Source of the DNA: Pengzhenrongella sicca
GTDB lineage: Bacteria > Actinomycetota > Actinomycetes > Actinomycetales > Cellulomonadaceae
Direction of reading: 5' to 3'
Assembly (NCBI RefSeq): GCF_017569225.1
Contig: NZ_CP071868.1
Location: 1,178,001 to 1,242,000, forward strand
Length of the DNA stretch: 64,000 bases
Below are positions 32,124 through 47,597 of the stretch, piece by piece. How positions within the stretch are numbered: position 1 is the stretch's first letter; every line of letters begins with the position of its first letter. The notes under the pieces were generated by a model, which was not told where the DNA came from, ran no database searches, and worked only from the letters and a program-made list of their open reading frames with translations. Both the position numbers and the translations under genes were made by a program.

Positions 32124-32166
32124 AAAAATGCCCCCGTCCGCGTTGGTTAGTCGCGGACAGGGGCAT
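32124..32166 (-). terminator. Intrinsic terminator of the element's minus-strand gene block
   Basis: On the minus strand, ATGCCCCTGTCCGCG pairs with CGCGGACGGGGGCAT across a 9-nt loop and is followed by TTTTTG. It is directly after the HNH-like gene stop. Confidence 0.85.
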
Positions 32167-32168
32167 CC

Positions 32169-32693
32169 TTACGCCGTGGTGTCGATCTGGTCGAGCGGAA
32201 CGTCCGGGTTGCGAAGAATCCAGAACAGGCGTTGAAGCGGTGAGAGCACCCTCGGAAGTCGAGCCCTCAAGCTGTCGTAATGCTTGTGATCGACGCGGCA
32301 CATTGGCAAATATCGGGCGGGACTTCCCGAGTAGACTGAGCCGGCCTCCCTACCTTTAATCTCGCACATCTCTAGGATGTCGCTATGATCGTAAGCAAAT
32401 TCCTCGGCAGGTTTTCCACAGCGGATACATGTCAAGAGATTTGCACTGCCCTTCACCCGTGCTACGCGATGATGCGCCGAGCTATACGCGATCGGTCCAG
32501 TCTTGAATCTAGGGTCGATGTGGTAGCGCCGATCGGCACAGTTGACAGTGACCCCAGAAGTGAGATTCCCCAATTGGATGCGCTTGGGTTCACTGCCACA
32601 TTTGCACTCGCACAGCACAAATGCTGATCCTCGACACCTCTCGGTAATCGTGAGCTCACCGAAAACCTTTCCAACGTGGTGCTTGACCGTCAC
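32169..32693 (-). CDS. HNH-like/zinc-finger phage-type protein
   Basis: A 174-residue protein. The N-terminal part has the VGKVFGELTITERC...CECKCGS...LGNLTSGVTVNC pattern found in many phage HNH and AP2 proteins, where it forms a small beta domain. The second half has CIRCGKPAEEFAYDHSD and MCRVDHKHYD, giving paired zinc cysteines and His/Asp residues that resemble an HNH nuclease core. A classic HNH triad cannot be assigned with confidence. It overlaps the preceding gene by ATGA and is followed by a strong terminator. Confidence 0.62.
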   Translation of the reverse strand: MTVKHHVGKVFGELTITERCRGSAFVLCECKCGSEPKRIQLGNLTSGVTVNCADRRYHIDPRFKTGPIAYSSAHHRVARVKGSANLLTCIRCGKPAEEFAYDHSDILEMCEIKGREAGSVYSGSPARYLPMCRVDHKHYDSLRARLPRVLSPLQRLFWILRNPDVPLDQIDTTA

Positions 32694-32980
32694 AGTGCCG
32701 CCAACTCGGCCATCACGTCGCCGGGGTGGAACTGCGCTCGCAGGGCCTCTGCTGCGCGCTCTAGCTTGTCAGCGCGGGCAAGGGAACGGGCGGCGCGCTC
32801 ACGCTGTGCCTGGGCGTCACGCACGTTGCGCTTTGCTTTCTTGTCGCGCCATTCCCACCAATCCTCCATGAGCATCCGACACCGATGCCCGCAGAAGCGG
32901 TATACCAATCCGTCTTCCCCCATCGTAGGGATGGGCAACGCGCACCGTAGACAAATGCCAATTGCGGCGTTCTCGTTCAT
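32690..32980 (-). CDS. Small zinc-ribbon-like protein with helical tail
   Basis: A 96-residue protein. The N-terminal third has ICLRCALPI and RFCGHRCRM, that is CxxC and CxxxC, suggesting one zinc site. The rest is a long, charged alpha helix (QAQRERAARSLARADKLERA), probably a coiled coil. No family is recognised. It is coupled to the HNH-like gene downstream by a four-base overlap. Confidence 0.65.
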   Translation of the reverse strand: MNENAAIGICLRCALPIPTMGEDGLVYRFCGHRCRMLMEDWWEWRDKKAKRNVRDAQAQRERAARSLARADKLERAAEALRAQFHPGDVMAELAAL

Positions 32981-33035
32981 TCTGTTCTGACCTCATTGTT
33001 TGTCGGGCGGTCGCCCGTGTCATTGCTGGGGTAAA

Positions 33036-33071
33036 GATTGGGGGCGCAGTCATGGTGGCTGCGCCCCAATC
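33036..33071 (-). terminator. Hairpin after the 230-residue element gene
   Basis: GATTGGGGGCGCAG (33036-33049) pairs with CTGCGCCCCAATC (33059-33071) with one bulged G. On the minus strand it is followed by TTTACC and lies 31 bp past the stop at 33102. Confidence 0.65.
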
Positions 33072-33101
33072 TCCCTACTCGGCCGGTTGTGGCCTATTGC
33101 C

Positions 33102-33794
33102 TCACCAGCTTGCGGACTCCACGGTCCGAACGCGAGCGCGCCCGTATTCGCCATCGACAGCGAATCCTGCACCCTCGGCCCCATTGACGAGAGCTTCGCG
33201 GACAAACTCCACGACATCGGCCGTCTCGATGGGGTCGCCGTCGAAAAGGATCACGTCAACCATTGTGGAGCCAGAGCCGAGAGTGACCTTGCCCAATCCG
33301 AATCCGCTGGTAATACCGATGAAGTTCTTGACACCGGCTGCCTTCGCATCTGCGATTGCTGCCTTGATCGTTCGTTCCTGGGACGCGGAGACTTCCGCCA
33401 GTTCGGCAAGTGCGGCCGCAATCGCCTTGGCTGCCTTTTCGTTCGCCTTGATCTGTGTCTCGGGATCGACAATCACCGCGACAGCAGACGCCCACCGTTC
33501 GGCAACCAGTGGCGCAAGTGCCGCGTCTGCGGCGCTAACGACTGCCTCGGCCGCGAGCGCGAGCATTCCCATGCGCGAGACATCCCCGGTTGCGGCCATG
33601 AGATCGAGGCCGGTCACTGTCGAGTCACCGGACAAGAGCCGGTCGTTGAGGGCAGCCTCGTGCTCGGTCGCGGTCGTGACAGCGGCCAGAGCGTCGGCGT
33701 GACGCTGTACGGCGACGGTCTGCGCGGCCTTCGCAGCGAGGTACTGAGCGTCGGCGGACGGGCTGACGGTTGTGGTGCTGGTCCTGGTTGCCAC
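33102..33794 (-). CDS. Element protein of unknown function, Ala-rich helical
   Basis: A 230-residue protein starting at GTG 33794. The frame continues upstream through repetitive Pro/Gly-rich sequence that looks non-coding, so the longer version is rejected. The first 150 residues are mostly Ala-rich amphipathic helices. The C-terminal 80 residues look globular (KNFIGITSGFGLGKVTLGSG, DVILFDGDPIETADVVEFVR). No known domain is recognised. It begins about 310 bp downstream of the palindrome array, with a run of hairpins in its leader. Confidence 0.65.
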   Translation of the reverse strand: MATRTSTTTVSPSADAQYLAAKAAQTVAVQRHADALAAVTTATEHEAALNDRLLSGDSTVTGLDLMAATGDVSRMGMLALAAEAVVSAADAALAPLVAERWASAVAVIVDPETQIKANEKAAKAIAAALAELAEVSASQERTIKAAIADAKAAGVKNFIGITSGFGLGKVTLGSGSTMVDVILFDGDPIETADVVEFVREALVNGAEGAGFAVDGEYGRARVRTVESASW

Positions 33795-33816
33795 TGTGTG
33801 TTGTTCCCTTGCTTGT

Positions 33817-33993
33817 GGGGCCTTCGGCCCCGTGGTGCCCAACGGCGAGATTGCTGCTGGGTCGGTCTGGGTATTGCGTCTGGGTCCTGCGGGTGGTGGG
33901 CCTTCGGCCCGACAGTTCGTTGTTCCTGGCCCTGTCGAGGTAGGTCCTGCGGTGGTGGGCCTTCGGCCCAACAGCGGGTTGTTCCTGGCCCTG
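33817..33993. repeat. Tandem leader repeats carrying GGGCC-TTC-GGCCC hairpins
   Basis: Three hairpins with 5- to 6-bp stems and a TTC loop lie at 33817-33831, 33898-33910 and 33957-33969. The last two are inside near-identical units of about 51 bp (33883-33934 and 33943-33993) with a period of 60 bp. The first is a decayed unit. They lie upstream of the minus-strand gene that starts at 33794. Confidence 0.75.
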
Positions 33994-34101
33994 GTCTGTC
34001 CCCGCCGATGCCCCGCACCTGGGCTGGGCGCTTGCCCCTTAAGAACATCAAAGAGAGCGACCGGTATCGGTGCAGGTCAGGGCCTCGCGAGAACGCGATT
34101 G

Positions 34102-34172
34102 TTGACCGTAACGATCAAGTCGTTTGACCGTTACGGTCAACTTTTGGCTGTTTCCTTGACCCTTAAGGTCAA
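34102..34172. promoter_or_regulatory. Array of three 17-bp palindromes (operator or iteron-like)
   Basis: TTGACCGTAACGATCAA (34102-34118), TTGACCGTTACGGTCAA (34124-34140) and TTGACCCTTAAGGTCAA (34156-34172) share the form TTGACC-N5-GGTCAA, with one mismatch in the first. Starts are 22 and 32 bp apart, close to whole helical turns, so bound proteins would lie on one face. The last copy includes the stop codon of the winged-helix gene. Confidence 0.82.
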
Positions 34173-34564
34173 TCGGAAACGGCTTGCTTCCGGCTCGTGG
34201 CTCGTGTCCTGTCGTGGACCTTGCAGGCGGCGAGCCCGATGCCGCCCGAGATGGCGTGACCAGGCACCACGAGGCAGGACGACTGCGAGGCCGCGCCGAG
34301 CAACCCGCGCTCGATGCAGACCTTGATCGCACGGGAGACTGTCGCAGGAGCGGGTTCGCTGATCTCCCCTGTGCTGCGGTCTGCCGTGAGCAGCATCGCG
34401 CGGAGCTGTCCAGGCCCGAACGTTGCGTGTCCGCGTCCGTTGTGGAATCCGTTGGCGGCGGCCATGACCTGAAACCACATCGGGAACATGGGGTTCCCGA
34501 TCCGCTCCTGCCAGGCGTCCTGGTAGTGCTGGGACCACGGTCGGACTCCCCGAGGTCCACTCAC
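34169..34564 (-). CDS. Winged-helix-type DNA-binding protein of the element
   Basis: A 131-residue protein. The central part (GHATFGPGQLRAMLL, then PAPATVSRAIKVCIERGLL) has the spacing of a helix-turn-helix and wing, and the N-terminus is rich in aromatic residues (HYQDAW, MFPMWFQVM). Similar small proteins occur in actinobacterial integrative elements, where they are candidate replication initiators or regulators. The GTG start at 34564 overlaps the preceding stop by four bases. Its 3' end runs into the palindrome array, a natural target for it. Role is inferred. Confidence 0.65.
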   Translation of the reverse strand: MSGPRGVRPWSQHYQDAWQERIGNPMFPMWFQVMAAANGFHNGRGHATFGPGQLRAMLLTADRSTGEISEPAPATVSRAIKVCIERGLLGAASQSSCLVVPGHAISGGIGLAACKVHDRTRATSRKQAVSD

Positions 34565-35001
34565 GTCGTCACGATGCCCGCGAAGCTCGCCGCGAGGTCA
34601 TCGTCCGACAGTTCGGCCGCGCTCCCCGAGGGCACAACGTCAGCGCGGACATCGAGCGTGAGGCCTTGGCCGGTCAAGCCGAGCGCATCGAGCACGGCGG
34701 GCGCGAGCACGCCGATCCTGCCCGTCCGCGACGAGCCCGGCTCAATGCGTCCCTCGCCCTCCAAGTCAGCGATGGCATCCGCGACGAGCTGCGGCGAGAG
34801 CCCCGTAGCGCGCTCGATGTCGCCCACGCGAAAGCTCGCGGGTGGCGTCGAAGCCAGTGCGTAGAGCAGGACCGCTGTCGTCGCGAGCTGGTCGCTGCGC
34901 GCTCGCTCGGATTTGGTCATCGAGGCTGCCAGGCGCAGGGCCTTGCGGTGAAGACCCGCCCACGCGCTCAAGGTGGGAGTGGTACGGTAGTCCGTGGTCA
35001 T
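34561..35001 (-). CDS. HTH-type protein of the element
   Basis: A 146-residue protein from ATG 35001, with GGAGCG upstream at 8-nt spacing. A helical N-terminal half (SAWAGLHRKALRLAASM) leads into a MarR/GntR-like winged-helix segment (FRVGDIERATGLSPQLVADA, then LEGEGRIEPG). The C-terminal quarter is acidic. The next gene overlaps by GTGA. It is a likely regulator or replication accessory. The upstream 46 in-frame residues are judged non-coding. Confidence 0.65.
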   Translation of the reverse strand: MTTDYRTTPTLSAWAGLHRKALRLAASMTKSERARSDQLATTAVLLYALASTPPASFRVGDIERATGLSPQLVADAIADLEGEGRIEPGSSRTGRIGVLAPAVLDALGLTGQGLTLDVRADVVPSGSAAELSDDDLAASFAGIVTT

Positions 35002-35120
35002 CGGTGTGCGCTCCAAGGGGTCAAGAAGGGGCCCACAAGGGCAATGGCGCGCCTTGGGGGTCGTTCTGGAGTGACTGGGCGGGGTCGCCTGTCGCGAACC
35101 TCTACGGGCCTGTTGCGGGC

Positions 35121-35573
35121 TCAGCCGGGCGCGAGCCAACCCCCGCGAGCGGGAACGCGCAGGCCGTTGCCGAGCAGAACAACACGCCGCTCGCGGCAGA
35201 GCGTGAGGTCGTCAGCGAGACGAGCGGCCACCGTGGCCCGCTGCCCCAGACTCAGCCCGTCAATAGCCGCGAGCGCCGCAACCTCGGCGTCGGCGTAGAC
35301 CGCGAGCGCGGTGCCACGCGGTGAGGTTGGGGCGAGCACTAGCCCGGCCTCGACTGGTCCCACTTGCACACCCAGACGAGCGGCAGGCTCGCGCAGATGG
35401 TCGAGAGCACCGACCCCGGCGAGGTAGCGAAGCTCGCGCGCTGCGATGTAGGCAACGGCGCGGCCACGTCTCGCGGCGTCGGCAAGGTCACGCCCGAACG
35501 GAGCGCGGCCACGCCTGAGGGCAGAGGTTGGGCTCGCGGCGGCTCGGATTGCGAGCAGCTCGACGGCGCTCAC
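35121..35573 (-). CDS. Element protein, unknown
   Basis: A 150-residue Ala/Arg/Leu-rich protein from GTG 35573, overlapping the excisionase-like gene stop by four bases. No motif is recognised; AALAAIDGLSLGQRATVAAR could be a helix-turn-helix, but weakly. The tight coupling with the excisionase gene is the main evidence that it is real. Composition is close to that of host shadows, so confidence is modest. Confidence 0.5.
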   Translation of the reverse strand: MSAVELLAIRAAASPTSALRRGRAPFGRDLADAARRGRAVAYIAARELRYLAGVGALDHLREPAARLGVQVGPVEAGLVLAPTSPRGTALAVYADAEVAALAAIDGLSLGQRATVAARLADDLTLCRERRVVLLGNGLRVPARGGWLAPG

Positions 35574-35836
35574 GCTGTGGTCATCACGAGCGAGGCCAGC
35601 TCGAAGGCTTCTATCTCCTCAATTCTGTATCGGACGCGGGATGCGAGCTTGACGAAAGCGATGCCGCGTCCGGCCGATCGGTCGTTTGCGAGGGAACCGG
35701 GAGACACCTGCCAGCGCGCGGCGAGGTCTTCGGTGGTGAGAAGGGCAAGTGGATTAGGCACTGGGGGAACTCCAAGCGGAGGTGCTGCGGCTGCGCCTGT
35801 CGGCACCTCCGGTGCGCCCGTGGACCGGGCGCTCAT
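35570..35836 (-). CDS. Excisionase-like HTH protein (Xis/MerR-type)
   Basis: An 88-residue protein. After a Pro/Ala-rich N-terminal third, the segment LLTTEDLAARWQVSPGSLAN, then RVRYRIEEIEAFE, matches the HTH_17/excisionase family winged helix. ATG 35836 is chosen; a longer start at 35914 adds a non-conserved region. It is the first gene of a minus-strand block and divergent from the integrase, the usual int/xis arrangement. It probably directs excision and may also act as a repressor. Confidence 0.78.
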   Translation of the reverse strand: MSARSTGAPEVPTGAAAAPPLGVPPVPNPLALLTTEDLAARWQVSPGSLANDRSAGRGIAFVKLASRVRYRIEEIEAFELASLVMTTA

Positions 35837-36256
35837 GGTTCCCTCGTGTCCTTCTGCTAGGCGGCTCGCATCCGAGCCACAGGCACTCCGAACGGGTGCG
35901 CCTGGCGTCAACATTAGGCCCTACACCCGGCGGGTCGACGACACGAACCATCGCTCGCTTCTAGTTCATATGGATGCAAGATGTATGCCCAGGTCAGAGA
36001 TACATTCACCTCTGAAAATGTCATGCTCAACCGCAAAATTCTTCATCCGAAAGAGTGAACGCCAAGCCTGGCTTATCATCCGCGAACCTTGCCGGGAGCG
36101 CTATCAGCGCATGGGAGATGCGCGCACGCGGCCGTCGAGCTGACCAATGGAAAAATCGGGGCCGCGCCCACGACTGAAGCCCTAGAACCTGACTATCTGT
36201 ACCCCGGAAACGTGCTAGGTTCCTCCTAGGTTGTTCAACGAAGGGGGCACGGACCG
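35837..36256. promoter_or_regulatory. Divergent int/xis control region
   Basis: A 420-bp gap, the most A+T-rich part of the window (about 35950-36060). It holds a small palindrome CTAGG-TTCCT-CCTAG at 36215-36229, 28 bp before the integrase start. A 58-residue plus-strand frame ending at 36143 is present but has no ribosome-binding site and no recognisable product. Promoters for int and xis are expected here; I cannot assign exact -35/-10 pairs. Confidence 0.55.
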
Positions 36257-37483
36257 ATGGCAAGACCTCGCACAGCACTTGGTACGGCAGGCGCAATGAC
36301 GACGGTCGGACAGGTGCGGGTCGATGGGCGATGGATCGAGCCGCCAGAGGGCACCAAGCCGACGCGCTGGCGCGCCCGCACCAAGTTCCGTGACCTTGAC
36401 GGCAAGCTCCGCGATGTCGAGCGGTTCGACAAGACGAAGGCCAAAGCCGAGGCCGAACTTAAGTCGGCACTCGCCGTCCGCGTCACGCCTCGCGCGTCCA
36501 ACGTGCTCCGCGCAGATATGTCTGTGCGGGATGCGGGCGGGATTTGGCTGAGGAGCACCGCGCGGCCCGAGGCGAAGCTTGCCCCCCGAACCGTGATGCT
36601 TTACCGGGAGACGTGGGCGAGGTACGTAGAGCACGGCGCAATCGCAGACCTGACGCTGCGCGAGGCAAACAAGGTGTCCATCCTTCGCGGCTTCCTTGAG
36701 GGCATCGCAGACGAGCACGGTTCCGGCTCGGCCAAGAGCACTCGCTCCGTCGTCTCGCTTGTGCTGAGCATGGCTGTGCAGGACGGTGTATTTGACGCGA
36801 ACGCGATGCGCGAGATCAAGACGCCGAAGGCGAACGCGCCGATAGCCCGTGACGGTGTGCGTTCTGCCGCTCGCGCCAAGCGTCTCGCAGAGCAAGGTTT
36901 CAACGCTGAGGACATTCGACGTGACACGACGCGGGCGCTCACTCGCGACGAGCGAGACCAGTTCCTCGCGTTCGCTGCCACGGACAAGGCTGCCAAGCGT
37001 GCGGACGTTGCCGACCTGGCGCAGTTCATGGCTGGCACCGGCGTACGCATAGCCGAGGCGCTAGGGCAGGCATGGGCCGACATCGACCTTGAGGCGGGCA
37101 CCGTGCGTGTGCGGGGGACCAAGACGGACGCCTCGCGGCGCACGCTGGCCCTGCCGCCGTGGCTGGTCGATGTCCTCACGGCTCGCCGGGCGCTCGGCAT
37201 CGAGTCCTCGGGCCTGGTCTTCCCCTCTACTGCCGTCAAGCGGGCCGGGCTGCCGCGTGACGCGAGCGCGGCCAACCGCGCGCTTCGCTCCCTGTTCGAT
37301 CGCGCAGGTTTCCCCTGGGCCACCCCTCACAGCTTGCGGCGTACTGTGGCGAGCCTGATTGACGACGCGGGCCTGTCCATCGCGCTCGCGGCCAACCAGC
37401 TCGGGCACGCTGACCCGTCGATGACGGCCCGGATCTACCTGGGCCGCAAGAGCGATATGAGTCGCGCGGCAGCCGTCCTGTAG
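36257..37483 (+). CDS. int: Tyrosine site-specific recombinase (integrase)
   Basis: A 408-residue integrase. The catalytic domain has Arg264 in GTGVRIAEAL, then His358 and Arg361 in PHSLRRTVASL, His384 in QLGHADPSMTARIYLG and the nucleophile Tyr394. An N-terminal arm-binding-type region (RWRARTKFRDLDGKLRDVER) and a SAM-like core-binding domain precede it. It lies about 90 bp from the right attachment site and reads toward it. ATG 36257 has AAGGGGG upstream. It should cut within the tRNA-Arg sequence duplicated at both ends. All catalytic residues are present, so it is probably active. Confidence 0.95.
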   Translation: MARPRTALGTAGAMTTVGQVRVDGRWIEPPEGTKPTRWRARTKFRDLDGKLRDVERFDKTKAKAEAELKSALAVRVTPRASNVLRADMSVRDAGGIWLRSTARPEAKLAPRTVMLYRETWARYVEHGAIADLTLREANKVSILRGFLEGIADEHGSGSAKSTRSVVSLVLSMAVQDGVFDANAMREIKTPKANAPIARDGVRSAARAKRLAEQGFNAEDIRRDTTRALTRDERDQFLAFAATDKAAKRADVADLAQFMAGTGVRIAEALGQAWADIDLEAGTVRVRGTKTDASRRTLALPPWLVDVLTARRALGIESSGLVFPSTAVKRAGLPRDASAANRALRSLFDRAGFPWATPHSLRRTVASLIDDAGLSIALAANQLGHADPSMTARIYLGRKSDMSRAAAVL

Positions 37484-37509
37484 AGCCCTCCCCAGAGGCC
37501 AGGTCCCCC

Positions 37510-37531
37510 GTAAGTGGGGGGTAAGTGGGGA
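37510..37531 (+). repeat. Right-arm direct repeats (possible integrase or Xis arm sites)
   Basis: GTAAGTGGGGG at 37510-37520 and GTAAGTGGGGA at 37521-37531, directly adjacent (11-bp period). They are 44 bp from the right core repeat and match the left-arm pair at 30938-30970. Confidence 0.75.
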
Positions 37532-37574
37532 AAGAGGCCATCATGGCTCGGCCTGATCGTGCATACCACCAGGT

Positions 37575-37614
37575 CAGAGTGCCCCCGGCTGGACTCGAAC
37601 CAGCAACCTACGGA
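37575..37614. mobile_element. Right attachment site within intact tRNA-Arg
   Basis: Identical over 40 bp to 30782-30821. It supplies the 3' half of the functional tRNA gene, so integration restored the tRNA. Confidence 0.92.
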
Positions 37615-37652
37615 TTAGAAGGCCGTTGCTCTATCCATTGAGCTACGGGGGC
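37580..37652 (-). tRNA. tRNA-Arg (anticodon TCT)
   Basis: Read on the minus strand: acceptor GCCCCCG pairs with CGGGGGC, D arm GCTC/GAGC, anticodon loop CTTCTAA with anticodon TCT, T stem GCTGG/CCAGC with loop TTCGAGT, discriminator A. CCA is not encoded. It is the integration target of the adjacent element. Confidence 0.95.
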
Positions 37653-37717: not shown

Positions 37718-39382
37718 GTGAGCTACTCTCCGGAGCACGACGTCACGGACGTGGCCGCCCCCCCGGCACCCGTGGCGCCCTCGTTGTTGGACGCGGTCCG
37801 TGACCTGCGCCGCGACGTCGAGGCCACGTCGTTCCCGCTCGACATCGACGGCGTCGACGCCGCTCGGGCGTCGCGCACGCGGCTGCTCGACCAGCTCTCC
37901 GACCACCTGCTGCCGCGGCTCGCCGAGCTGTCGGCGCCGGCGATCGTCGTGCTGGCCGGGTCGACCGGCGCGGGCAAGTCGACGCTCGTCAACTCGCTCC
38001 TGGGCACCGAGGTGTCCGAGGCGGGCGTGCTCCGCCCGACCACGCGGCAGGCGGTCATCGCGCACCACCCCGACGACGGCGAGCTGCTCGCCGGCCATCC
38101 CGTGCTCGAGGACGTCAAGGTCGTCTCGCACGAGTCCGTCCCCCGCGGCGTCGCCCTCCTCGACGCGCCCGACCTCGACTCCGTGCTCGAGTCGAACCGG
38201 GCGACGGCGCACCGGCTGCTCGAGGCCGCCGACCTCTGGCTCTTCGTGACCACCGCCGCCCGGTACGGCGACGCGCTGCCGTGGCAGGTGCTCGCGGGGG
38301 CGATGGAGCGCGGCGCGTCGGTCGCGATGGTGCTCAACCGGGTTCCGGTCGAGTCGCTGCCCGCGGTGCGCGGAGACCTGCTGGTGCGGCTGCGCGAACG
38401 CGGCATGCAGGGCGTGCCCCTGTTCGTCGTGCCCGACGCCGGCCCGCAGCAGGGCCCGCTGAGCACCGCCTCGGTCGCGCCGATCAAGCGCTGGCTCACG
38501 ATGCTCGCCGGCCCTGACCGCGCCCGGGCCGTGATCGCCCGGACCCTGCGCGGCTCGCTCGGCGCGCTGCGGCCCTGGGTCGATACGCAGGCGGACGCCG
38601 TCCAGGACCAGGTCGACGCGGCCGACGCGCTGCGCGCAGCGATCGGCGCCGCCCTGAGCGGCCCGACCGATGCGGCGCGGGCGGCCGTGCACCGCGGCGT
38701 CGTGGCCGACGGCGCGGTGACCGCCCGCTGGACCGAGCTCGTGGCGGGGGCCGGCCGGTTCGCGCACGTCGTGCGCCCGTCCGGGCGCATCCGCGCGGCG
38801 CGGCGCCGCACGACGCGGCTGCGCGAGGCGTCGGTGGGGCCGCTCCTCGCGGACCTTCAGCAGGCCGCCGTCGCCAACCTCGAACGCGCCGGCGCCGCCG
38901 CCGAGCGCGAGCTGCGCGAGCGACTCTCCGCCCGCGGCGCGCCGGACGGCGCGGCCGGCTTCGTCGCATCCTGGCCGTCGGACGACCGCCGCTCGGCGCG
39001 AGCCACCCGTGCCGACTCGATCGCCACGGCGTGGATCGACGGCGCGCGGCTGGCGGTGCTCGCCGCGCTGGCCGAAGGTGACCCGCGGGCACTCAAGCGG
39101 TCCGCCCGCGCCGCGAAGGCCCTGGGCGACCGCGCCCTCGCGGCGCTCGTGCTCGCCGCCGCGGCCGGCCTCGCCCCCGCGGCGGAGCTGCTCACCGAGC
39201 TGCTCGGCGACGCGGGCGACGCGCTGCGCGATCAGCTGCGCGCCGAGCTCGAGGCTCACGCGGCCGCCCAGGTCGAGGCCGAGGGCGCCGCGCTCGCCGC
39301 GCTGCTCGACGTGCCCGACCTCGCCGCGGACGCGGCCTCGCGGCTGCGGCTGCGGTTCGCCGTCCTGCGGGGCCTGACGTGA
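37718..39382 (+). CDS. Dynamin-like GTPase A1 (first cassette)
   Basis: A 554-residue dynamin-superfamily GTPase. G1 is GSTGAGKS at residues 81-88, followed by VNSLLGTEVSEAGVLRPTTR (switch I). G3 is LLDAPDLDSV and G4 is VLNRVP. A hallmark DLWLFVTTAARYGDALPW lies between G3 and G4. The C-terminal half is helical and ends with a hydrophobic Ala/Leu paddle-like stretch. GTG 37718 is the start. It overlaps the next GTPase gene by GTGA, and the pair is repeated at 43.4-47.0 kb. Bacterial dynamins remodel membranes, for example Streptomyces DynA/DynB in cell division; a similar role is inferred. Confidence 0.85.
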   Translation: MSYSPEHDVTDVAAPPAPVAPSLLDAVRDLRRDVEATSFPLDIDGVDAARASRTRLLDQLSDHLLPRLAELSAPAIVVLAGSTGAGKSTLVNSLLGTEVSEAGVLRPTTRQAVIAHHPDDGELLAGHPVLEDVKVVSHESVPRGVALLDAPDLDSVLESNRATAHRLLEAADLWLFVTTAARYGDALPWQVLAGAMERGASVAMVLNRVPVESLPAVRGDLLVRLRERGMQGVPLFVVPDAGPQQGPLSTASVAPIKRWLTMLAGPDRARAVIARTLRGSLGALRPWVDTQADAVQDQVDAADALRAAIGAALSGPTDAARAAVHRGVVADGAVTARWTELVAGAGRFAHVVRPSGRIRAARRRTTRLREASVGPLLADLQQAAVANLERAGAAAERELRERLSARGAPDGAAGFVASWPSDDRRSARATRADSIATAWIDGARLAVLAALAEGDPRALKRSARAAKALGDRALAALVLAAAAGLAPAAELLTELLGDAGDALRDQLRAELEAHAAAQVEAEGAALAALLDVPDLAADAASRLRLRFAVLRGLT

Positions 39383-40923
39383 CCGCGACCCCGGCGGCGT
39401 CGGGCGCCGCGTCCGGCGAGACGACCGCGCTGACCGCGCGCGTCGACGACGTCGTGCGCGCGCTCGCGCTCGCGGACGGACGCCTCGACCCGGACGTCGC
39501 CGACCGCATCGCGGCGGCGATGGCCGGGGTGCGCGAGCGGCTCGCCCTCGGGGTCGACCACACGGTGGTCGCGCTGGTCGGCGGCACGGGCTCGGGCAAG
39601 TCGAGCCTGTTCAACGCCGTCAGCGGCCTCGACTTCGCCGACGTCGGGGTGCGCCGCCCGACGACGTCGGAGGTCACGGCGTGCGTGTGGGGGACGACCG
39701 CCTCGGCGCTGCTCGACTGGCTCGGCGTGGCGGCCGACCGGCGGATCGAGCGGGAGAGCGCGCTCGACGCCGACTCCGAGGCCGCGCTGCGCGGACTCGT
39801 GCTGCTCGACCTGCCCGACCACGACTCGATCGAGGACGCGCACCGCGAGGTGGTCGACCGGCTGCTGCCGATGGCCGACCTGCTCGTGTGGGTCGTCGAC
39901 CCGCAGAAGTACGCCGACGACGCGCTGCACTCCGGGTACCTGCGTCGCCTCGTCGGCCACGAGGACGCCATGGTCGTCGTGCTCAACCAGATCGACACCG
40001 TGCCGGTCGACCTGCGCGGCCGGCTCGAGGCCGACGTCGCGCGGCTCCTGCGCGAGGACGGCCTCGTCGGCGTCCCGGTGCGGACCGCGTCCGCGCGCAC
40101 CGGCGACGGCGTCCGCGACCTCCGCCACCTGCTCGCCGACGTCGCGGCCCGCCGCAGCACGGCGGCGGTGCGGGTCGGGGCCGAGATCGCCGACGCCGCC
40201 GCGCTCCTGGGCCACCAGGTCGCGCCCGGCGAGGCGACCCGTGCCGAGCTGCCGGCGTCGGCGGCGGTCGACGCGTTCGCGCGGGCCGCGGGCCTGCCGG
40301 CGGTGGCCGCGGCGCTCGAGGCCGTCGTCCGGGGCGGCGGCCGCGCCGTCCCGTCGTTCGGCGCCGTGCAGCCCGACACCGTCGAGATCGCCCGCTCGAG
40401 CTGGCTCGGGGCGGCCGGGGCCGGCCTGCCCCCGCGCTGGCAGGCGGCGCTCGCGGAGCGGCTCGCGTCGGCCGACGACCTGCGCCGCGGCGTCGACGCG
40501 CGGCTCGCCGACGTCGGCATCGCTGCCCGGCGCTCGCGCGGGGCGCTCGTGCTCACCCTCGCCGCCGCGGTGGCCGCGGTCGGGGCCGTCGCCGCGGGCC
40601 TCGTGGCTGCCTGGCCGCTGCTGAGCGGGGGAGCGGGGTCGGTGACCGACGGCGTCGCGCTGCCGCTCACCCTCGCACTCGTCCTGCTCGCCCTCGTGCT
40701 CGGCGCGACCGCGCTGCTCGTGCGCCGACGGGACGCGCGCCGGCGGGCCGCGATCGTGCAGCGCGACGGCCGCGCGGGCCTCGACGAGATAGTCGAGCGG
40801 CTGCTGGTGGTGCCCACGCTCGACCTGCTCAGCGAGCACCGCGAGGTCCGCGAGCTCGCGGTCGCCGCGGGCCGCCGCGAGCCACCCCCGGCCGGTCTCG
40901 GCACGGGTTCGTCCCCAGCCTGA
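39379..40923 (+). CDS. Dynamin-like/YfjP-type GTPase B1 with C-terminal membrane anchor
   Basis: A 514-residue GTPase. G1 is GGTGSGKS (residues 68-75), then GVRRPTTSEVTACVWG (switch I), G3 LLDLPDHDSI, and G4 VVLNQID. A family segment DLLVWVVDPQKYADDAL precedes G4, and SARTGDGV gives G5. Two transmembrane helices lie near residues 395-455, with a basic loop and a soluble tail. It is annotated elsewhere as a YfjP-like or 50S ribosome-binding GTPase. It is translationally coupled to A1 and probably forms a hetero-oligomer with it at the membrane. Confidence 0.85.
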   Translation: MTATPAASGAASGETTALTARVDDVVRALALADGRLDPDVADRIAAAMAGVRERLALGVDHTVVALVGGTGSGKSSLFNAVSGLDFADVGVRRPTTSEVTACVWGTTASALLDWLGVAADRRIERESALDADSEAALRGLVLLDLPDHDSIEDAHREVVDRLLPMADLLVWVVDPQKYADDALHSGYLRRLVGHEDAMVVVLNQIDTVPVDLRGRLEADVARLLREDGLVGVPVRTASARTGDGVRDLRHLLADVAARRSTAAVRVGAEIADAAALLGHQVAPGEATRAELPASAAVDAFARAAGLPAVAAALEAVVRGGGRAVPSFGAVQPDTVEIARSSWLGAAGAGLPPRWQAALAERLASADDLRRGVDARLADVGIAARRSRGALVLTLAAAVAAVGAVAAGLVAAWPLLSGGAGSVTDGVALPLTLALVLLALVLGATALLVRRRDARRRAAIVQRDGRAGLDEIVERLLVVPTLDLLSEHREVRELAVAAGRREPPPAGLGTGSSPA

Positions 40924-41011
40924 CCGCACGCCCGCGCGCGCCCGGCGGGGCGGGGCGCACCCTCGCACGGACGGGCCGGCACCGGTCGGCCGCGGGCGAG
41001 GAGGAACGACG

Positions 41012-41617
41012 ATGAGCACGAGCGACCTGAACCTGACCCTCGTGGGCTGGGTGGCCACCGGGCCGAAGCTGTACAGCGGCCCGGGCACCACCCCGTTCAC
41101 CAGCTTTCGGATGGCCAGCACCCGCCGCCACTTCGACCGGGTGCGCGGCTCCTGGGTCGACGGGCGGACGGAGTGGTTCACCGTCAAGTGCTGGCGGCAG
41201 CAGGCGCGCAACGTCGCCGAGACGCTGCGCAAGTCGGACCCGGTCATCGTGACCGGGCGGCTCGCGACGCAGGAGTGGACCGGCCCCGACGGAACGGCCC
41301 GCACGACCCTGGTCCTCGACGCGCTGGCGATCGGCCCCGACCTGACGTTCGGCAGCGCGAAGTTCGCGCGCACGATGCACGTGGCCGACGCCGCCACGGA
41401 GGTGGCCGACCAGCCCGAGCCGCCCGCGAACGGCCAGGACGGCCAGGACGGTTCGGCCCACGGCGACGGCGTTGACGGCGACGACGGCAGCGACGACGGT
41501 GGCGTCGGATTCCCGGCGCTGGACGACCCGTGGGCCGGCGGCTCCGGCGACGGCGACCTGCCGGACCCGGCGGAGGACGAGCTCGGCTCGCTGAGCGCCG
41601 CGCGCTCGATCACCTAG
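41012..41617 (+). CDS. ssb: Single-stranded DNA-binding protein paralogue
   Basis: A 201-residue OB-fold SSB. The DNA-binding domain is seen in LNLTLVGWVATGPKLYSGPG, FTSFRMASTRRHFD, EWFTVKCWRQQARNVAETLRKSDPVIVTGRLATQEW. The C-terminal 80 residues are Asp/Gly-rich. The acidic tip DDDIPF that recruits partner proteins is absent; the protein ends in LSAARSIT. This suggests a second, SsbB-like paralogue rather than the replicative SSB. GAGGAGG gives a strong ribosome-binding site. It sits between the two dynamin cassettes, upstream of ettA. Confidence 0.88.
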   Translation: MSTSDLNLTLVGWVATGPKLYSGPGTTPFTSFRMASTRRHFDRVRGSWVDGRTEWFTVKCWRQQARNVAETLRKSDPVIVTGRLATQEWTGPDGTARTTLVLDALAIGPDLTFGSAKFARTMHVADAATEVADQPEPPANGQDGQDGSAHGDGVDGDDGSDDGGVGFPALDDPWAGGSGDGDLPDPAEDELGSLSAARSIT

Positions 41618-41699
41618 GCTGGGGCACCGACCCCTACCCGCCGCAGTGCCGGGCGGGCGGGCGGACCCCATCTTCGAGCACAGGGCGGACGATTAGCCA

Positions 41700-43382
41700 G
41701 TGGCTGAGTTCATCTACACCATGTACAAGACGCGCAAGGCGCACGGCGACAAGGTCATCCTTGATGACGTCACGCTGAACTTCCTGCCCGGCGCCAAGAT
41801 CGGCGTCGTCGGCCCGAACGGCGCCGGTAAGTCGACGATCCTGCACATCATGGCGGGGCTGGACCAGCCGTCCAACGGCGAGGCGCGGCTCTCGCCGGGC
41901 TACACCGTCGGCATCCTGCTGCAGGAGCCGCCGCTGAACGAGGCCAAGACGGTGCTCGGCAACGTCGAGGAGGGCGTTGCCGAGATCAAGGGCAAGATCG
42001 ACCGCTTCAACGAGATCTCCGCGCTGATGGCCGAGCCCGACGCCGACTTCGACACGCTGCTCGCCGAGATGGGCGAGCTGCAGGAGGCGATCGACGCCGC
42101 CGACGCGTGGGACCTCGACGCCCAGCTCGAGCAGGCCATGGACGCGCTGCGCTGCCCGCCGCCCGACGCCGACGTGTCGGTCCTGTCCGGTGGCGAGCGG
42201 CGCCGCGTCGCGCTGTGCAAGCTGCTGCTCGAGAAGCCCGACCTGCTCCTGCTCGACGAGCCCACGAACCACCTCGACGCCGAGAGCGTGCTGTGGCTCG
42301 AGGCGCACCTCGCGCAGTACACGGGCGCCGTCCTCGCCGTGACCCACGACCGGTACTTCCTCGACCACGTGGCCGAGTGGATCGCCGAGGTCGACCGCGG
42401 CCGCGTGTACCCGTACGAAGGCAACTACTCGACCTACCTCGAGAAGAAGGAAGCCCGCCTCGAGGTCCAGGGCAAGAAGGACGCGAAGCTCGCCCGCCGC
42501 CTGCGCGAGGAGCTCGAGTGGGTGCGCTCGAGCGCGAAGGGCCGGCAGACGAAGTCCAAGTCGCGCCTGGCGCGGTACGAGGAGATGGCGTCCGAGGCCG
42601 ACCGTCTGCGCAAGCTCGACTTCGAAGAGATCCAGATCCCGCCGGGCCCGCGCCTGGGCTCGATCGTGATCGAGGCGAAGGACCTGAACAAGGGCTTCGA
42701 CGGGCGCACGCTCATCGACGGCCTCTCGTTCACGCTGCCGCGCAACGGCATCGTCGGCGTCATCGGCCCGAACGGCGTCGGCAAGACGACGCTCTTCAAG
42801 ACCATCGTCGGGCTCGAGCCGCTGGATGCCGGCCAGCTCAAGATCGGCGAGACGATCCAGATCTCGTACGTCGACCAGGACCGTGGCGGGATCGACCCCG
42901 ATAAGACCCTGTTCGAGGTCGTCTCCGACGGGCTCGACTACATCAAGGTCGGCAACGTCGAGATGCCGTCGCGCGCGTACGTCGCCGCGTTCGGGTTCAA
43001 GGGGCCCGACCAGCAGAAGCGGGCCGGCGTGCTCTCGGGCGGTGAGCGCAACCGCCTCAACCTCGCGCTGACCCTCAAGCAGGGCGGAAACCTCCTGCTG
43101 CTCGACGAGCCCACGAACGACCTCGACGTCGAGACGCTGGGCTCGCTCGAGAACGCGCTGCTCGAGTTCCCCGGCTGCGCCGTGGTCACCTCGCACGACC
43201 GGTGGTTCCTCGACCGGGTCGTGACGCACATCCTCGCGTACGAGGGCACCGAGGAGAACCCGGGCAACTGGTACTGGTTCGAGGGCAACTTCGCCTCCTA
43301 CGAGGAGAACAAGATCGAGCGGCTCGGGCCCGACGCGGCGCGGCCGCACCGCGTCACCTACCGCAAGCTCACGCGCGACTGA
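41700..43382 (+). CDS. ettA: Energy-dependent translational throttle protein EttA
   Basis: A 560-residue ABC-F protein of standard EttA length. N-terminus EFIYTMYKTRKAHGDKVIL is the EttA signature. Walker A motifs are GPNGAGKST and GPNGVGKTT; signatures LSGGERRRVALCKLLL and LSGGERNRLNLALTL; Walker B motifs end in DEPTNHLDAES and DEPTNDLDVET. The arm and linker follow (REELEWVRSSAKGRQTKSKS). It gates ribosomal E-site entry to elongation by ATP/ADP ratio. The start is GTG 41700. Flanked by the two dynamin cassettes. Confidence 0.96.
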   Translation: MAEFIYTMYKTRKAHGDKVILDDVTLNFLPGAKIGVVGPNGAGKSTILHIMAGLDQPSNGEARLSPGYTVGILLQEPPLNEAKTVLGNVEEGVAEIKGKIDRFNEISALMAEPDADFDTLLAEMGELQEAIDAADAWDLDAQLEQAMDALRCPPPDADVSVLSGGERRRVALCKLLLEKPDLLLLDEPTNHLDAESVLWLEAHLAQYTGAVLAVTHDRYFLDHVAEWIAEVDRGRVYPYEGNYSTYLEKKEARLEVQGKKDAKLARRLREELEWVRSSAKGRQTKSKSRLARYEEMASEADRLRKLDFEEIQIPPGPRLGSIVIEAKDLNKGFDGRTLIDGLSFTLPRNGIVGVIGPNGVGKTTLFKTIVGLEPLDAGQLKIGETIQISYVDQDRGGIDPDKTLFEVVSDGLDYIKVGNVEMPSRAYVAAFGFKGPDQQKRAGVLSGGERNRLNLALTLKQGGNLLLLDEPTNDLDVETLGSLENALLEFPGCAVVTSHDRWFLDRVVTHILAYEGTEENPGNWYWFEGNFASYEENKIERLGPDAARPHRVTYRKLTRD

Positions 43383-43397
43383 CGGCCGGCGCTCGAC

Positions 43398-45434
43398 GTG
43401 ACACGCGCGCACGAGCCGGAGCCGGCCCGACCCGACGCCGAGCTGCTCGCGGCGCTGGTCAGCCTGCGCGGCGCCGTGGCGGAGGTCCGGCTCGCGCTCG
43501 AGCAGGCGGACGTCGCCCGGGCGCGCGCGGACCGCGTGCTCATGCTCGACCAGCTCGACGACTACCTGCTGCCGCGGGTGCGGGCGGTCGGCGCACCGCT
43601 GCTCGTCGTCATCGGTGGGTCGACGGGCGCGGGCAAGTCGACGCTCGTCAACTCCCTCCTCGGGGCGGTGGTGAGCGACGCGGGCGTGCTCCGGCCGACG
43701 ACGCGCGCGCCCGTCCTGGTGCATCACCCGCTCGACGCCGGCTGGTTCCGGGGCGACCGCGTGCTGCCCGGGCTCGCCCGGATCACCACCCCCGGGGCGG
43801 GTGCGGCCGCGGCCGGAGCAGGTGTGACCGCCTCCGCGGCGAGCGTGGCCACCCCCGCGGCGCCCGGCGACTCGCCTGGCCGTGAGCTGCGGCTCGTGGG
43901 GTCGGTGGCCGTGCCGCCCGGCCTGGCGCTCCTCGACGCGCCCGACATCGACTCCGTCGTCGAGGAGAACCGCCGCCTCGCGACCCAGTTGCTCGGCGCC
44001 GCCGACCTGTGGCTGTTCGTCACGACGGCCGCCCGGTACGCCGACGCCGTCCCGTGGGACCTGCTCGAGACCGCGGCCCGGCGCCGCACCGAGGTCGCGA
44101 TCGTGCTCGACCGCGTCGACCACGGGGCCGGCGAGGCCATCGGCACGCACCTGCGGCAGATGCTCGTCGAGCACGGGCTCGCGGCCGCGCCGGTCCTGAT
44201 GATCGGCGAGACGCCGCTCGAGGACGGGCTGCTGCCGGCCGACGTCGTCGCGCCGGTCGCCGACTGGCTGACGGCGCTCGGCGTCGACGCGGGCGCCCGC
44301 GCGGCTGCGATCGCCCGCACGCGCGACGGCGCGACCGCCGACGTGCTCGTCCGGGCCGCCGGCCTGGCCGACGCCGCCGACCTGCAGCGCGACGCGGACG
44401 CCCGGCTGCGCACGATGGTCACCACCCCGTACGGTGACGCGCTCGACGCCGTGCTCCGCGCCACCTCGGACGGCACGATGCTGCGCGGCGAGGTGCTCGC
44501 GCGCTGGCAGGACGTCGTCGGCACGGGCGAGATGCTCCGCGGGATCCAGACCCGGGTCAGCCGGGCCCGGGACCGGCTCGTCGCGGCCGTCCAGGGCAAG
44601 CCCGCGGCCGCCCCCGAGCTCGCCAACGCCATCGGGCACGGGCTCGAGGCCGTGGTGCTCGACGCCGCCGAGGACGCCGCCGACCGCGCGCACGCCGCGT
44701 GGCGCGCCGATCCGGCGGGCGCCGCGCTGCTGGCCGGGATCGGGCTCGCGCGGAGCTCGGCAGAGCTGCGGTCCCAGGTGGCGGCGGAGATCCGCGGCTG
44801 GCAGTCGGACGTGCTGGAGCTGGTGAGCGAGGAGGGCGCGAGCAAGCGAGCGACCGCCCGGGCGCTGTCGTTCGGGGTCAACGGCCTCGGCGCCGCGCTC
44901 ATGGTGATGATCTTTGCCGCGACCGGCGGCCTGACGGGCGCCGAGGTCGGGGTCGCCGGCGGGTCCGCGCTGCTCGCCCAGCGCGTCCTCGAGGCGGTCT
45001 TCGGCGACGACGCCGTGCGCCAGCTCGCCCGGGCCGCGTCCGTGCGGCTCGCCGAGCGCGTGCGCGGGGTGCTCGACGGGCAGGCCGCGCGCTTCCTGGT
45101 CGAGCTCGACACGTTGGGCACCGCGCAGGCGAGCGGGGCGGCGCTGCGGCTGGCCGCCGGGCAGCTCGCCGGGGCGCTGCGCCGTGCGGAGCAGGAGCAG
45201 GCCGGCGCCACGGCCCGGCCGGCGGGCGGCACCCCCGGCTCGGCGGCCGGCAGCGGCCTGCGCGGCGCGGGCCTGCGGCGCGCGGGTGCGACCGGCGCCC
45301 GGGCGGACCGGGACCGCACGGGCACCGACCGCACGGGCGCCGACAGAACGGGCGCCGACAGAACGGACGCCGTCCACGGCGGTGGCCTGCGCGGCTGGTG
45401 GCGCCGCCGGCGCAGCGGTCCGGGGCAGCGATGA
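43398..45434 (+). CDS. Dynamin-like GTPase A2 (second cassette)
   Basis: A 678-residue paralogue of A1. G1 is GGSTGAGKS at about residues 73-81, switch I VSDAGVLRPTTRAPVLV, G3 LLDAPDIDSV, and the shared DLWLFVTTAARYADAVPW. G4 is VLDRVDH. Compared with A1 it has an insert (GAGAAAAGAGVTASAASVA region) after switch I, a clearer hydrophobic paddle (GLGAALMVMIFAATGGLTGA) and a long basic Arg/Gly/Ala tail of about 80 residues. Inside the tail, TDRTGADRTGADRT is a short repeat. Starts at GTG 43398, 15 bp after ettA, and overlaps B2 by ATGA. Confidence 0.85.
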   Translation: MTRAHEPEPARPDAELLAALVSLRGAVAEVRLALEQADVARARADRVLMLDQLDDYLLPRVRAVGAPLLVVIGGSTGAGKSTLVNSLLGAVVSDAGVLRPTTRAPVLVHHPLDAGWFRGDRVLPGLARITTPGAGAAAAGAGVTASAASVATPAAPGDSPGRELRLVGSVAVPPGLALLDAPDIDSVVEENRRLATQLLGAADLWLFVTTAARYADAVPWDLLETAARRRTEVAIVLDRVDHGAGEAIGTHLRQMLVEHGLAAAPVLMIGETPLEDGLLPADVVAPVADWLTALGVDAGARAAAIARTRDGATADVLVRAAGLADAADLQRDADARLRTMVTTPYGDALDAVLRATSDGTMLRGEVLARWQDVVGTGEMLRGIQTRVSRARDRLVAAVQGKPAAAPELANAIGHGLEAVVLDAAEDAADRAHAAWRADPAGAALLAGIGLARSSAELRSQVAAEIRGWQSDVLELVSEEGASKRATARALSFGVNGLGAALMVMIFAATGGLTGAEVGVAGGSALLAQRVLEAVFGDDAVRQLARAASVRLAERVRGVLDGQAARFLVELDTLGTAQASGAALRLAAGQLAGALRRAEQEQAGATARPAGGTPGSAAGSGLRGAGLRRAGATGARADRDRTGTDRTGADRTGADRTDAVHGGGLRGWWRRRRSGPGQR

Positions 45435-47017
45435 GCCCGCGCGGTCCGGACCTCGCCGTCCGCGTCACGGCGCTGGAAGAGGCCATCGCCGCAGGCACCG
45501 GTCGCCTCGACGCGGCGGACCTGGACCGGGCGCGCGACGCCGTCGGCCACATCCGCGAGCGGCTCGACCTCTCGCCCGAGCACACGGTCGCCGCGCTCGC
45601 CGGCTCGACCGGATCGGGCAAGTCCTCGCTCCTGAACGCCCTCGCGGGCGAGGAGCTCGCCGAGGTCGGCGTGCGCCGGCCCACGACCGGCCACCCCGTC
45701 GCGGCCGTCTGGGGCTCGGCCGGCGCCGCGCCCCTGCTCGACTGGCTCGGCGTGGACGAGCGCCGATACCTCGAGACCGCGGGACCGGTGCCGCCCGGCC
45801 TGGTCCTGATCGACCTGCCTGATCACGACTCCGTGGTCGTGGAGCACCGGCTGCGCGCGGAGCGGCTGCTCGACCGCGTCGACCTGTACGTGTGGGTGGC
45901 CGATCCGCAGAAGTACGCCGACGCGGCGCTGCACGAGCAGTACCTGCGACCGCTGGCCGGGCACGGCGCGGTCGTGGTGCTCGTGCTCAACCAGGTCGAC
46001 CGGCTGACCCCGGCGGAGCGGGATCGCTGCGTCGCGGACCTGCGGCGCCTGGCGGTGCAGGACGGGCTCCGGCGCGTGCGCGTCCTGCCGGTCTCCGCCC
46101 GCACGGGGGAGGGGATCGACGCGCTGCGTGCGCTGCTCGTCGACGCGGCGCAGCGCCGGGCCGCCGCGACCGCGCGGCTCACGGCCGACCTGCGGGTCGA
46201 GGCCACCCGGCTCGCGGACGCGTGCGGCGACGGCATGCCCACCCGGGCGCGCCGCGCGGCCCGCGACGAGCTCGTCGGGGCGCTCGAGGAGGCGGCCGGC
46301 GTCGGCGTCGTCGTCGACGCCGTGCGGGTCTCGGCGGCGCGGCGGGCGCGGGCCGCGACCGGCTGGCCGCCCACCCGCTGGCTCACGCGGCTGCGGTCCG
46401 ACCCGCTGCGGCGCCTGCACCTGGACCGCCCGGCCGCGCGACCCGAGCTCGCCCGGACGTCGCTGGTCACGCCCGGACCGGCCGCCCGCGCCCGCGCCGC
46501 GATCGCCGTCCGCGCGTACACGGATGCGGCGACCGCCGGCGCCCCCGACGCGTGGGTGCTCGCGGCCCGCGAGCGCGCCGCGGCGGCGGACCTGCCCGAC
46601 GCGCTCGACCAGGCCGTCGCCGGCACGCCGCTGGACGCCGAACGGCACCCGCGCTGGTGGCGCGCCGTCGGCGCGGTCCAGTGGGTGCTGCTCGCGACCC
46701 TCGCGGCCGGGCTGGTCTGGTTGACGGCCCTCGCGGCGGCGGCATACCTCGGCCTGCCCGACGCGACGACGCCGACCTGGTCCGGGCTGCCGGTCCCGAC
46801 CGTCCTCGCCGTCGGCGGCGCGCTCGCGGGCATCCTCCTCGCGCTCGGCGCGCGCCTGGTCGGGGGAGTCGTCGCGCGGCGCCGCGCCGCGCGCGCCCGC
46901 GTCAGGCTGCGGGCCGCGGTGGCGCGGGTCGCGGACGAGTTCCTGGTCGGGCCGGTCGACGCGGAGATGGGCGCGCTGGACCGGTGCCGCGCGGGCGCGC
47001 GGATGGCGGCGGCATGA
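45431..47017 (+). CDS. Dynamin-like/YfjP-type GTPase B2 with C-terminal membrane anchor
   Basis: A 528-residue paralogue of B1. G1 is GSTGSGKSSLLNALAG (residues 58-73), GVRRPTTGHPVAAVWG follows, G3 is LIDLPDHDSV, the shared DLYVWVADPQKYADAALHEQ precedes G4 VLNQVD, and SARTGEGI is G5. Two transmembrane helices lie near residues 415-485. The order of motifs and hydrophobic segments is the same as in B1, showing descent from a common two-gene unit. ATG 45431 overlaps the A2 stop. Confidence 0.85.
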   Translation: MSPRGPDLAVRVTALEEAIAAGTGRLDAADLDRARDAVGHIRERLDLSPEHTVAALAGSTGSGKSSLLNALAGEELAEVGVRRPTTGHPVAAVWGSAGAAPLLDWLGVDERRYLETAGPVPPGLVLIDLPDHDSVVVEHRLRAERLLDRVDLYVWVADPQKYADAALHEQYLRPLAGHGAVVVLVLNQVDRLTPAERDRCVADLRRLAVQDGLRRVRVLPVSARTGEGIDALRALLVDAAQRRAAATARLTADLRVEATRLADACGDGMPTRARRAARDELVGALEEAAGVGVVVDAVRVSAARRARAATGWPPTRWLTRLRSDPLRRLHLDRPAARPELARTSLVTPGPAARARAAIAVRAYTDAATAGAPDAWVLAARERAAAADLPDALDQAVAGTPLDAERHPRWWRAVGAVQWVLLATLAAGLVWLTALAAAAYLGLPDATTPTWSGLPVPTVLAVGGALAGILLALGARLVGGVVARRRAARARVRLRAAVARVADEFLVGPVDAEMGALDRCRAGARMAAA

Positions 47018-47048: not shown

Positions 47049-47597
47049 ATGACTCGGCTCAGGATCCCGGTGCAGCTGCGCTGGTCCGACATGGACGCGT
47101 ACGGCCACATCAACAACGTGCAGATGTTCCGGATCCTCGAGGAGGCCCGGATCGCGGCGTTCTGGTCGCACCCGAACCCGGCCGACGGCGGCTGGCCGAC
47201 CGCGGTCATCGACGCCGGGGTGGGCGCCGCGACGACGACCCTGGTCGCGAGCCAGGAGATCGAGTACCTGCGGCCCCTCGAGTACCGCCGCGAGCCCGTG
47301 ACCGTCGAGCTCTGGATCGGCCACCTCGGCGGGGCGAGCATCGACGTCTGCTACCAGGTCGTCGACGGCGGCGGCGACGGCACGGTCGACGGCGTCGCCG
47401 CGGGCACCGGGGCCCCGGTGGCCGAGGCGCCCTACGCGCGGGCGTGCACGACGCTCGTGCTGGCTGACGAGGCGACCGGGTCGCCCCGGCGACTCACCCC
47501 AGCGGAGCGGGCGTCGTGGACCCCGTTCCTGGGGCCGATGGTGCAGCTGCGCCGCCGGCGCCCGGCCGCCCCGAGCCCGCAGGCCGTGGGCCGCTAG
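47049..47597 (+). CDS. Acyl-CoA thioesterase, 4HBT hotdog fold
   Basis: A 182-residue single-hotdog protein. The signature LRWSDMDAYGHINNVQMFRI carries the 4HBT-type catalytic Asp region, followed by EYLRPLEYRREPVTVELWIG. It hydrolyses acyl-CoA thioesters; the acyl group is unknown. It follows B2 by 32 bp. Its last 104 bases overlap, tail to tail, the SDR-type gene on the other strand; the overlap covers a low-conservation C-terminus. Confidence 0.88.
   Translation: MTRLRIPVQLRWSDMDAYGHINNVQMFRILEEARIAAFWSHPNPADGGWPTAVIDAGVGAATTTLVASQEIEYLRPLEYRREPVTVELWIGHLGGASIDVCYQVVDGGGDGTVDGVAAGTGAPVAEAPYARACTTLVLADEATGSPRRLTPAERASWTPFLGPMVQLRRRRPAAPSPQAVGR

Follow-up and report, generated by a model that had tools for sequence, protein, structure and literature searches.

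A stretch of 64,000 nucleotides from Pengzhenrongella sicca (positions 1,178,001 to 1,242,000 of contig NZ_CP071868.1, assembly GCF_017569225.1; hereafter the window) carries two two-gene pairs of dynamin-like GTPases, A1-B1 and A2-B2, that flank genes for a paralogue of the single-stranded DNA-binding protein (SSB) and for the ABC-F protein EttA. We find that the two are ancient paralogous pairs with separate ancestry, that pair 1 (A1-B1) sits in an old and widespread neighbourhood, and that deletions in A1 have removed a loop and 16 residues from a hydrophobic segment. The simplest history is that pair 2 (A2-B2) was inserted into this neighbourhood in an ancestor of the window's family. On the + strand, A1 (37718..39382, 554 residues) is followed by B1 (39379..40923, 514 residues), the ssb paralogue (41012..41617, 201 residues), ettA (41700..43382), A2 (43398..45434, 678 residues) and B2 (45431..47017, 528 residues). 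The co-oriented run from 37718 to 47017 continues into an acyl-CoA thioesterase gene (TE, 47049..47597), which starts 31 bp after B2. A preliminary description of this DNA had the places and order of the six genes right and had recognised two paralogous DynA/DynB-like pairs, with signatures proper to the A and to the B proteins, around the SSB paralogue and EttA, all of which we confirm; TE was absent from its list.

Ancestry of the two pairs

Order, class and phylum are those of the window's organism throughout, and f-codes are the family labels of the genome collection. Of 139 A rows, 6 were cut or short and were excluded from the first tree onwards. A concatenated A+B tree was then made from 91 of 138 pairs over 998 columns, thinned within the window's family and with f20 left out. 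In this tree, the order's 36 sampled upstream pairs form a clade that includes A1-B1 (support 100), and the 13 sampled downstream pairs form another, which includes A2-B2 (support 99). A mixture model gives each clade a support of 100, and the B-only tree supports them at 96 and 98, respectively. The A-only tree holds the downstream clade at 99, and its upstream clade is joined by two Streptomyces rows (support 55).

The preliminary description had proposed a single cassette duplicated at this spot, with each member of one pair closest to its counterpart in the other. A1/B1 and A2/B2 are not mutual closest relatives. A tree that holds the upstream and downstream pairs of the family in one clade, including both pairs of the f13 genome G099, is rejected by the approximately unbiased (AU) test with p-AU 1e-80 and a cost of 497 log-likelihood units, and the same two clades recur in the A and B trees; under the models used, these results together rule out a recent local duplication of the A-B cassette. 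A group that joins the order's downstream pairs to its unlinked ones (27 rows, without f15) is accepted, with p-AU 0.81 and a likelihood better than that of the free tree. Both kinds of pair are present in f1, f3, f13, f15 and one f35 genome, and since these families hold both kinds, the duplication appears older than f1, f3, f13 and f15.

GTPase domains and folds

Pfam Dynamin_N scores above its cut-off in all four proteins, and B2 also matches MMR_HSR1. A1 and A2 share 39% identity over 397 aligned positions (E 8e-57), B1 and B2 share 51% over 238 positions (E 2e-60), and A1 and B1 share 34% over 172 positions, located in the GTPase domain. In the alignments of A and B, the G1 motif GxTGxGKS and the RPTT motif are near-invariant, G3 is mostly DxPD rather than DxPG, and G4 of the A proteins is degenerate (NRVP/DRVD). 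Two hallmarks of the dynamin superfamily are present: a GTPase domain with the G1 P-loop, switch-I threonine and G3, and a helical neck around this domain to which both the N-terminal and the C-terminal helices contribute. The AlphaFold2 model of A1 (predicted local distance difference test, pLDDT, 91.4) finds its best folds by Foldseek in IniA, BDLP and Fzo1/mitofusin; that of B1 (pLDDT 86.8) is closest to the Campylobacter dynamin-like protein (DLP) pair and to IniA. A search of the PDB with a profile of the A alignment gave no chain at E <= 0.001, phmmer of the PDB with A1 gave weak matches only (four EttA chains and one nucleoporin), and phmmer with B2 gave weak matches to Der, Era and TrmE.

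The membrane-binding elements are predicted from sequence only. Hydropathy places two hydrophobic helices near the C-terminus of B1 (residues 391-409 and 430-448) and of B2 (residues 419-437 and 455-473), in line with the preliminary description. A2 has a hydrophobic segment of 49 residues (residues 489-537, ALSFGVNGLG...AVFGD; 44862..45008, + strand) and a tail with DRTGADRTGADRT repeats at residues 637-659.

Shortening of A1

A2 had been described as differing from A1 by an insert and a repeat-bearing tail. The tail is present, but the insert is really a deletion in A1: the downstream and unlinked A proteins measured all keep the long segment, so A2 represents the older form, and A1 and its relatives are shortened. 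Two regions of A1 are affected. The stretch from RPTT to G3 spans 37-40 residues in all 39 upstream A proteins measured from f1, f3, f9 and f13, and every other A measured has 45 or more, with f20 and a few rows standing outside the pattern. The C-terminal hydrophobic segment is at least 44 residues long in all 63 downstream or unlinked A proteins and at most 40 in 46 of 71 upstream ones; A1 has 33 residues, 16 fewer than A2, and three Streptomyces A proteins have 36-38.

Where genomes of f1, f3 and f13 have two pairs, a shortened A1 accompanies a full pair 2. The upstream A of f15 and of one f35 genome differs in sequence only, its segment being degenerate yet 44-77 residues long. The segment is lost in 24 of 24 two-pair upstream rows versus 10 of 25 one-pair rows, in a test set where states are mostly per family. 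An association between having two pairs and segment loss in A1 finds no support once relatedness is considered (independent contrasts agree in 1-2 of 6 pairs, p 0.5-1), and few independent events lie behind it.

The neighbourhood of pair 1

As had been noted, the SSB paralogue (Pfam SSB) is without the usual acidic DEPPF-type tip; it ends ...SLSAARSIT. The other of the two SSB genes found in the genome ends in the canonical DEPPF. Of 72 SSBs at the loci read, 69 are without a PF tip. The identity of ettA is likewise borne out by the NCBIfam EttA equivalog NF008775 (907.1 bits, cut-off 599), and TE matches Pfam 4HBT_2. A tRNA-Arg(UCU) gene (37579..37652, - strand; ARAGORN) is divergent from A1 and lies 65 bp before it.

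A1 matches occur in 93 of 119 genomes of the order and EttA in 115 of 119; at stricter E-values, the A profile matches 86 of 197 class genomes and 28 of 149 phylum genomes. The searches with A1 and the A profile scored the best 7-11 candidates per genome, so that weak second pairs may be missed. Gene order was read by A, B, SSB, EttA and TE searches in 120 loci (at most 20 kb each) and the window. Pairs lie upstream of ssb and/or ettA in f1-f3, f5, f7-f9, f13, f15, f17, f18 and f20 within the order and in f24, f26, f27, f35, f37, f38 and f45 outside it. Pairs with neither ssb nor ettA in the stretch read, in some cases on short contigs, occur in f3, f6, f11, f13, f15 and several other families. 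For Streptomyces, we took the best 80 of 560 relatives in an alignment led by its B protein, all 80 being from this genus: A-B-SSB-EttA-TE is found on one strand in 61 of these loci and, with an extra SSB match upstream, in one more, the remaining 18 showing part of this order or a different arrangement. Among linked upstream pairs, 38 of 72 have a tRNA-Arg(tct) no more than 1 kb before A, against none of 41 unlinked and none of 23 downstream pairs, and this tRNA is present somewhere in 77 of the 80 Streptomyces loci. The linked pair therefore appears to be a single locus that keeps its position in different orders. Pair 1 thus sits in an old neighbourhood, tRNA-Arg(UCU)-A-B-ssb-ettA, often with TE.

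Linkage to ssb and ettA, proposed earlier as part of a 2+2 layout, therefore extends to genomes far removed from this strain; what is conserved there is the linkage of pair 1. The four-base A-B overlaps are also real in both pairs, but they are usual for the protein family, being present in 59 of 75 upstream pairs linked to ssb or ettA, in 20 of the 23 that follow ettA and in 35 of 40 others. Two irregular loci may be recorded here. At L027 (G023), a genome of the window's family without pair 2, a 2.6-kb gap separates ssb and ettA, and at L076 and L077 (f38) the A gene beside B-ssb-ettA has only about 308 codons, approximately the GTPase domain.

An integrative element of 6.8 kb (30782-37631) adjoins A1. 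It is bounded by 57-nt direct repeats of part of the tRNA-Arg(UCU) gene (30782-30838 and 37575-37631), which are 88% identical, the first 40 nt being identical. The element has a tyrosine integrase at 36257-37483 and a GC content as low as 0.62; its ten inner open reading frames gave only two sub-threshold Pfam matches, both DNA-binding.

Pair 2 beside pair 1

Among 30 genomes of the window's family, 25 have both pairs on one contig and pair 2 located after ettA (as read in loci or in the window for 22 and from coordinates for three), four have pair 1 only and one has neither. The distance from ettA to A2, on the same strand, is below 260 bp in 18 of the 22 loci and 1.0-6.7 kb in the other four. 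Outside the family, pair 2 follows ettA in one of the 37 order genomes with loci read (G099). In several relatives lacking pair 2 at this spot, ettA and TE directly adjoin: the junction measures 2-8 bp in four of six f13 pair-1 loci, 7 bp in one f3 locus, 26-28 bp in three Streptomyces loci, 29-99 bp in four f38 loci and 17-27 bp in f27. It is 4-183 bp in the four genomes of the window's family that have pair 1 only. The simplest history is that pair 2 was inserted between ettA and TE in the ancestor of the window's family and later lost in some members.

The 2+2 layout of G099 (locus L065) has an upstream pair that groups with f13/f3. Its downstream pair lies inside the window-family clade in the free tree, and grouping it with the other f13 pair 2 was borderline in the AU test (p 0.07). 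This placement suggests that pair 2 of G099 reached the same position by horizontal transfer.

Proposed role and alternative explanations

We think it likely that the pairs make heterotypic dynamin complexes, pair 1 being the counterpart of DynA-DynB at the septum and pair 2 an ancient paralogue placed alongside. By analogy with DynA-DynB and the Campylobacter pair, B would be a GTPase anchored in the cytoplasmic membrane by its two helices and A a GTPase without these anchors; translated together, they would assemble in a GTP-dependent manner at the inner membrane face. For pair 1, the most likely role is in support of the division septum. The conserved hydrophobic segment of A2 probably dips into the membrane, and pair 2 is likely to tether or remodel the membrane itself. 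With pair 2 presumably set between ettA and TE in the ancestor of the window's family, all seven genes could be co-expressed, and any tie of the pairs to ssb or ettA would be conjectural. A more ambitious version, in which the pairs split an ancestral job, seems to us rather improbable: A1-B1 would have become a septum scaffold after its segment loss and A2-B2 would have kept the membrane work, the whole being a seven-gene unit whose four GTPases act together and share their expression with an SSB of the segregation type and a throttle on the ribosome.

Several observations weigh against parts of the preferred account. The order's pair 2 is never an exact clade in free trees, f38/f45 upstream rows or the outgroup falling on the same side, and a clade uniting the upstream pairs of the whole class is neither found in the free tree nor rejected (p-AU 0.38). 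The short segment of A1 is still hydrophobic (Kyte-Doolittle 1.98). The VIA list for B1 consists of unrelated GTPases over residues 50-271 and does not separate B1 from Era-like GTPases over the G domain. TE lies 0.7-5 kb or more from ettA in f2, f7, f8, f17, f18, f24, f45 and one f13 locus. The identity with DynA-DynB rests on synteny, gene order, number of transmembrane (TM) segments and exclusion, drawn from Streptomyces loci other than those of S. venezuelae and S. coelicolor; the Dynamin_N scan of Streptomyces genomes left B unlisted, and the model could thus miss other pairs. Finally, of nine genomes of the window's family only two have SsgA-family proteins, and SsgA is found in four f14 genomes that give no A match.

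Conserved gene order might also arise without function, pair 1, ssb and ettA having stayed together through slow rearrangement and pair 2 having landed by chance. In keeping with this, ssb-ettA stands without A or B within the stretch read at L036, f6 and f11 retain an unlinked pair, and ettA and A2 are 1.0-6.7 kb apart in 4 of 22 family loci. However, A-B-ssb-ettA, often with tRNA-Arg, persists across orders, and the close same-strand spacing of ettA and A2 (under 260 bp) holds in 18 of the 22; we regard this account as possible but less likely. The 2+2 layout could instead be ancestral in the order, pair 2 having moved away in other families. G099 also has it, the AU test that groups its downstream pair with the other f13 pair 2 is only borderline, and TE does not adjoin ettA in several other families. 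We nevertheless find this quite doubtful, given ettA-TE junctions without pair 2 in other orders (Streptomyces, f38 and f27) as well as in f3 and f13, and given a free tree in which the G099 downstream pair sits inside the window-family clade, which points to transfer.

The same gene order, the same four-base overlaps, the shared signatures and the adjacency of the pairs would all follow from recent in-place duplication of one cassette, but this is barely credible against the rejected one-clade constraint, the two clades on which the A and B trees agree, overlaps that are common across the protein family, and pairs of the second kind that in f6 and f11 have no ssb or ettA beside them and in f3 and f13 lie elsewhere. 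Anti-phage or toxin-export dynamins of the LeoABC type were also considered. PADLOC matches B1 to LeoA (positions 20-181 of 559, E 7e-9) and LeoBC (positions 75-286 of 601, E 3e-7), and A1, A2 and B2 match the Leo models at E 5e-4 or weaker. These matches span only part of the models and are confined to the GTPase part. Whereas defence genes have a patchy distribution, these pairs are old chromosomal genes with synteny across families; we rejected this candidate as very improbable.

Comparison with known systems

The mycobacterial protein IniA (6j72, 6j73) is, like A1, an actinobacterial dynamin-like protein and is its top Foldseek match (E 1.4e-10), but the identity over that alignment is 16%, and its genes and neighbourhood are different. 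Campylobacter jejuni DLP1-DLP2 (5owv, 5oxf), the top Foldseek matches of B1, are likewise a heterotypic pair encoded side by side. Their identity to B1 is at most 11% in the two top alignments, and they are described as a cytosolic tetramer, whereas B here has two predicted membrane helices. Pairing is reported as usual for bacterial DLPs (PMC6104087).

The closest parallel is in Streptomyces, whose cell-division proteins DynA-DynB localise to the divisome and stabilise the Z-ring. Published accounts list vnz_12110 (DynA) and vnz_12105 (DynB) as an operon (PMC6428758), give DynB two TM segments (PMC8748795) and list sco2685/sven2472 as a putative ATP-binding protein (PMC3765725). Adjacent A then B genes, with two membrane helices in B, are features that our pairs share with DynA-DynB, and the Streptomyces A-B loci have the same neighbours as pair 1, namely ssb, ettA, TE and tRNA-Arg. 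We take sco2685/sven2472 to be dynA, ssbB to be SCO2683, and the tip-less SSB that directly follows the dynamin pair in the Streptomyces loci, as it does here, to be SsbB. From synteny, order, TM count and exclusion, pair 1 probably corresponds to DynA-DynB. No account of this arrangement, including dynamin with SsbB in Streptomyces, was found in a literature search that left most subscription papers outside.

There are also differences. SsgB and SepF are partners of DynAB in Streptomyces, and the SsgA model found no SsgA-family protein in seven of the nine window-family genomes; the window genome itself has three SsgA-family matches and one SepF match. Co-occurrence of SsgA with A/B was not found among the order genomes or the nine window-family genomes, and is no help for a joint function. 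The A proteins of Streptomyces and A1 carry different deletions, with a loop of at least 64 versus 39 residues and a segment of 36-38 versus 33. The window has, in addition, a second ancient pair. In two of the three Streptomyces genomes scanned, the A gene alone gave a long Dynamin_N match, and the one further hit was short and covered a P-loop. The third, G193, has an extra cluster of three genes with strong Dynamin_N matches (E 2e-30 to 2e-24) at C1:6512468-6516813, well away from its A-B pair.

The comparison places the probable division dynamins of Streptomyces in an old, widespread neighbourhood common to other actinobacterial orders, and it reveals a second, equally old pair that appears absent from the Streptomyces genomes scanned. 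It thereby offers a direct comparison, DynA with or without the hydrophobic segment and one pair or two, for the septal role of dynamin pairs, and the window's family, in which both pairs are genetically linked, provides a convenient test case.

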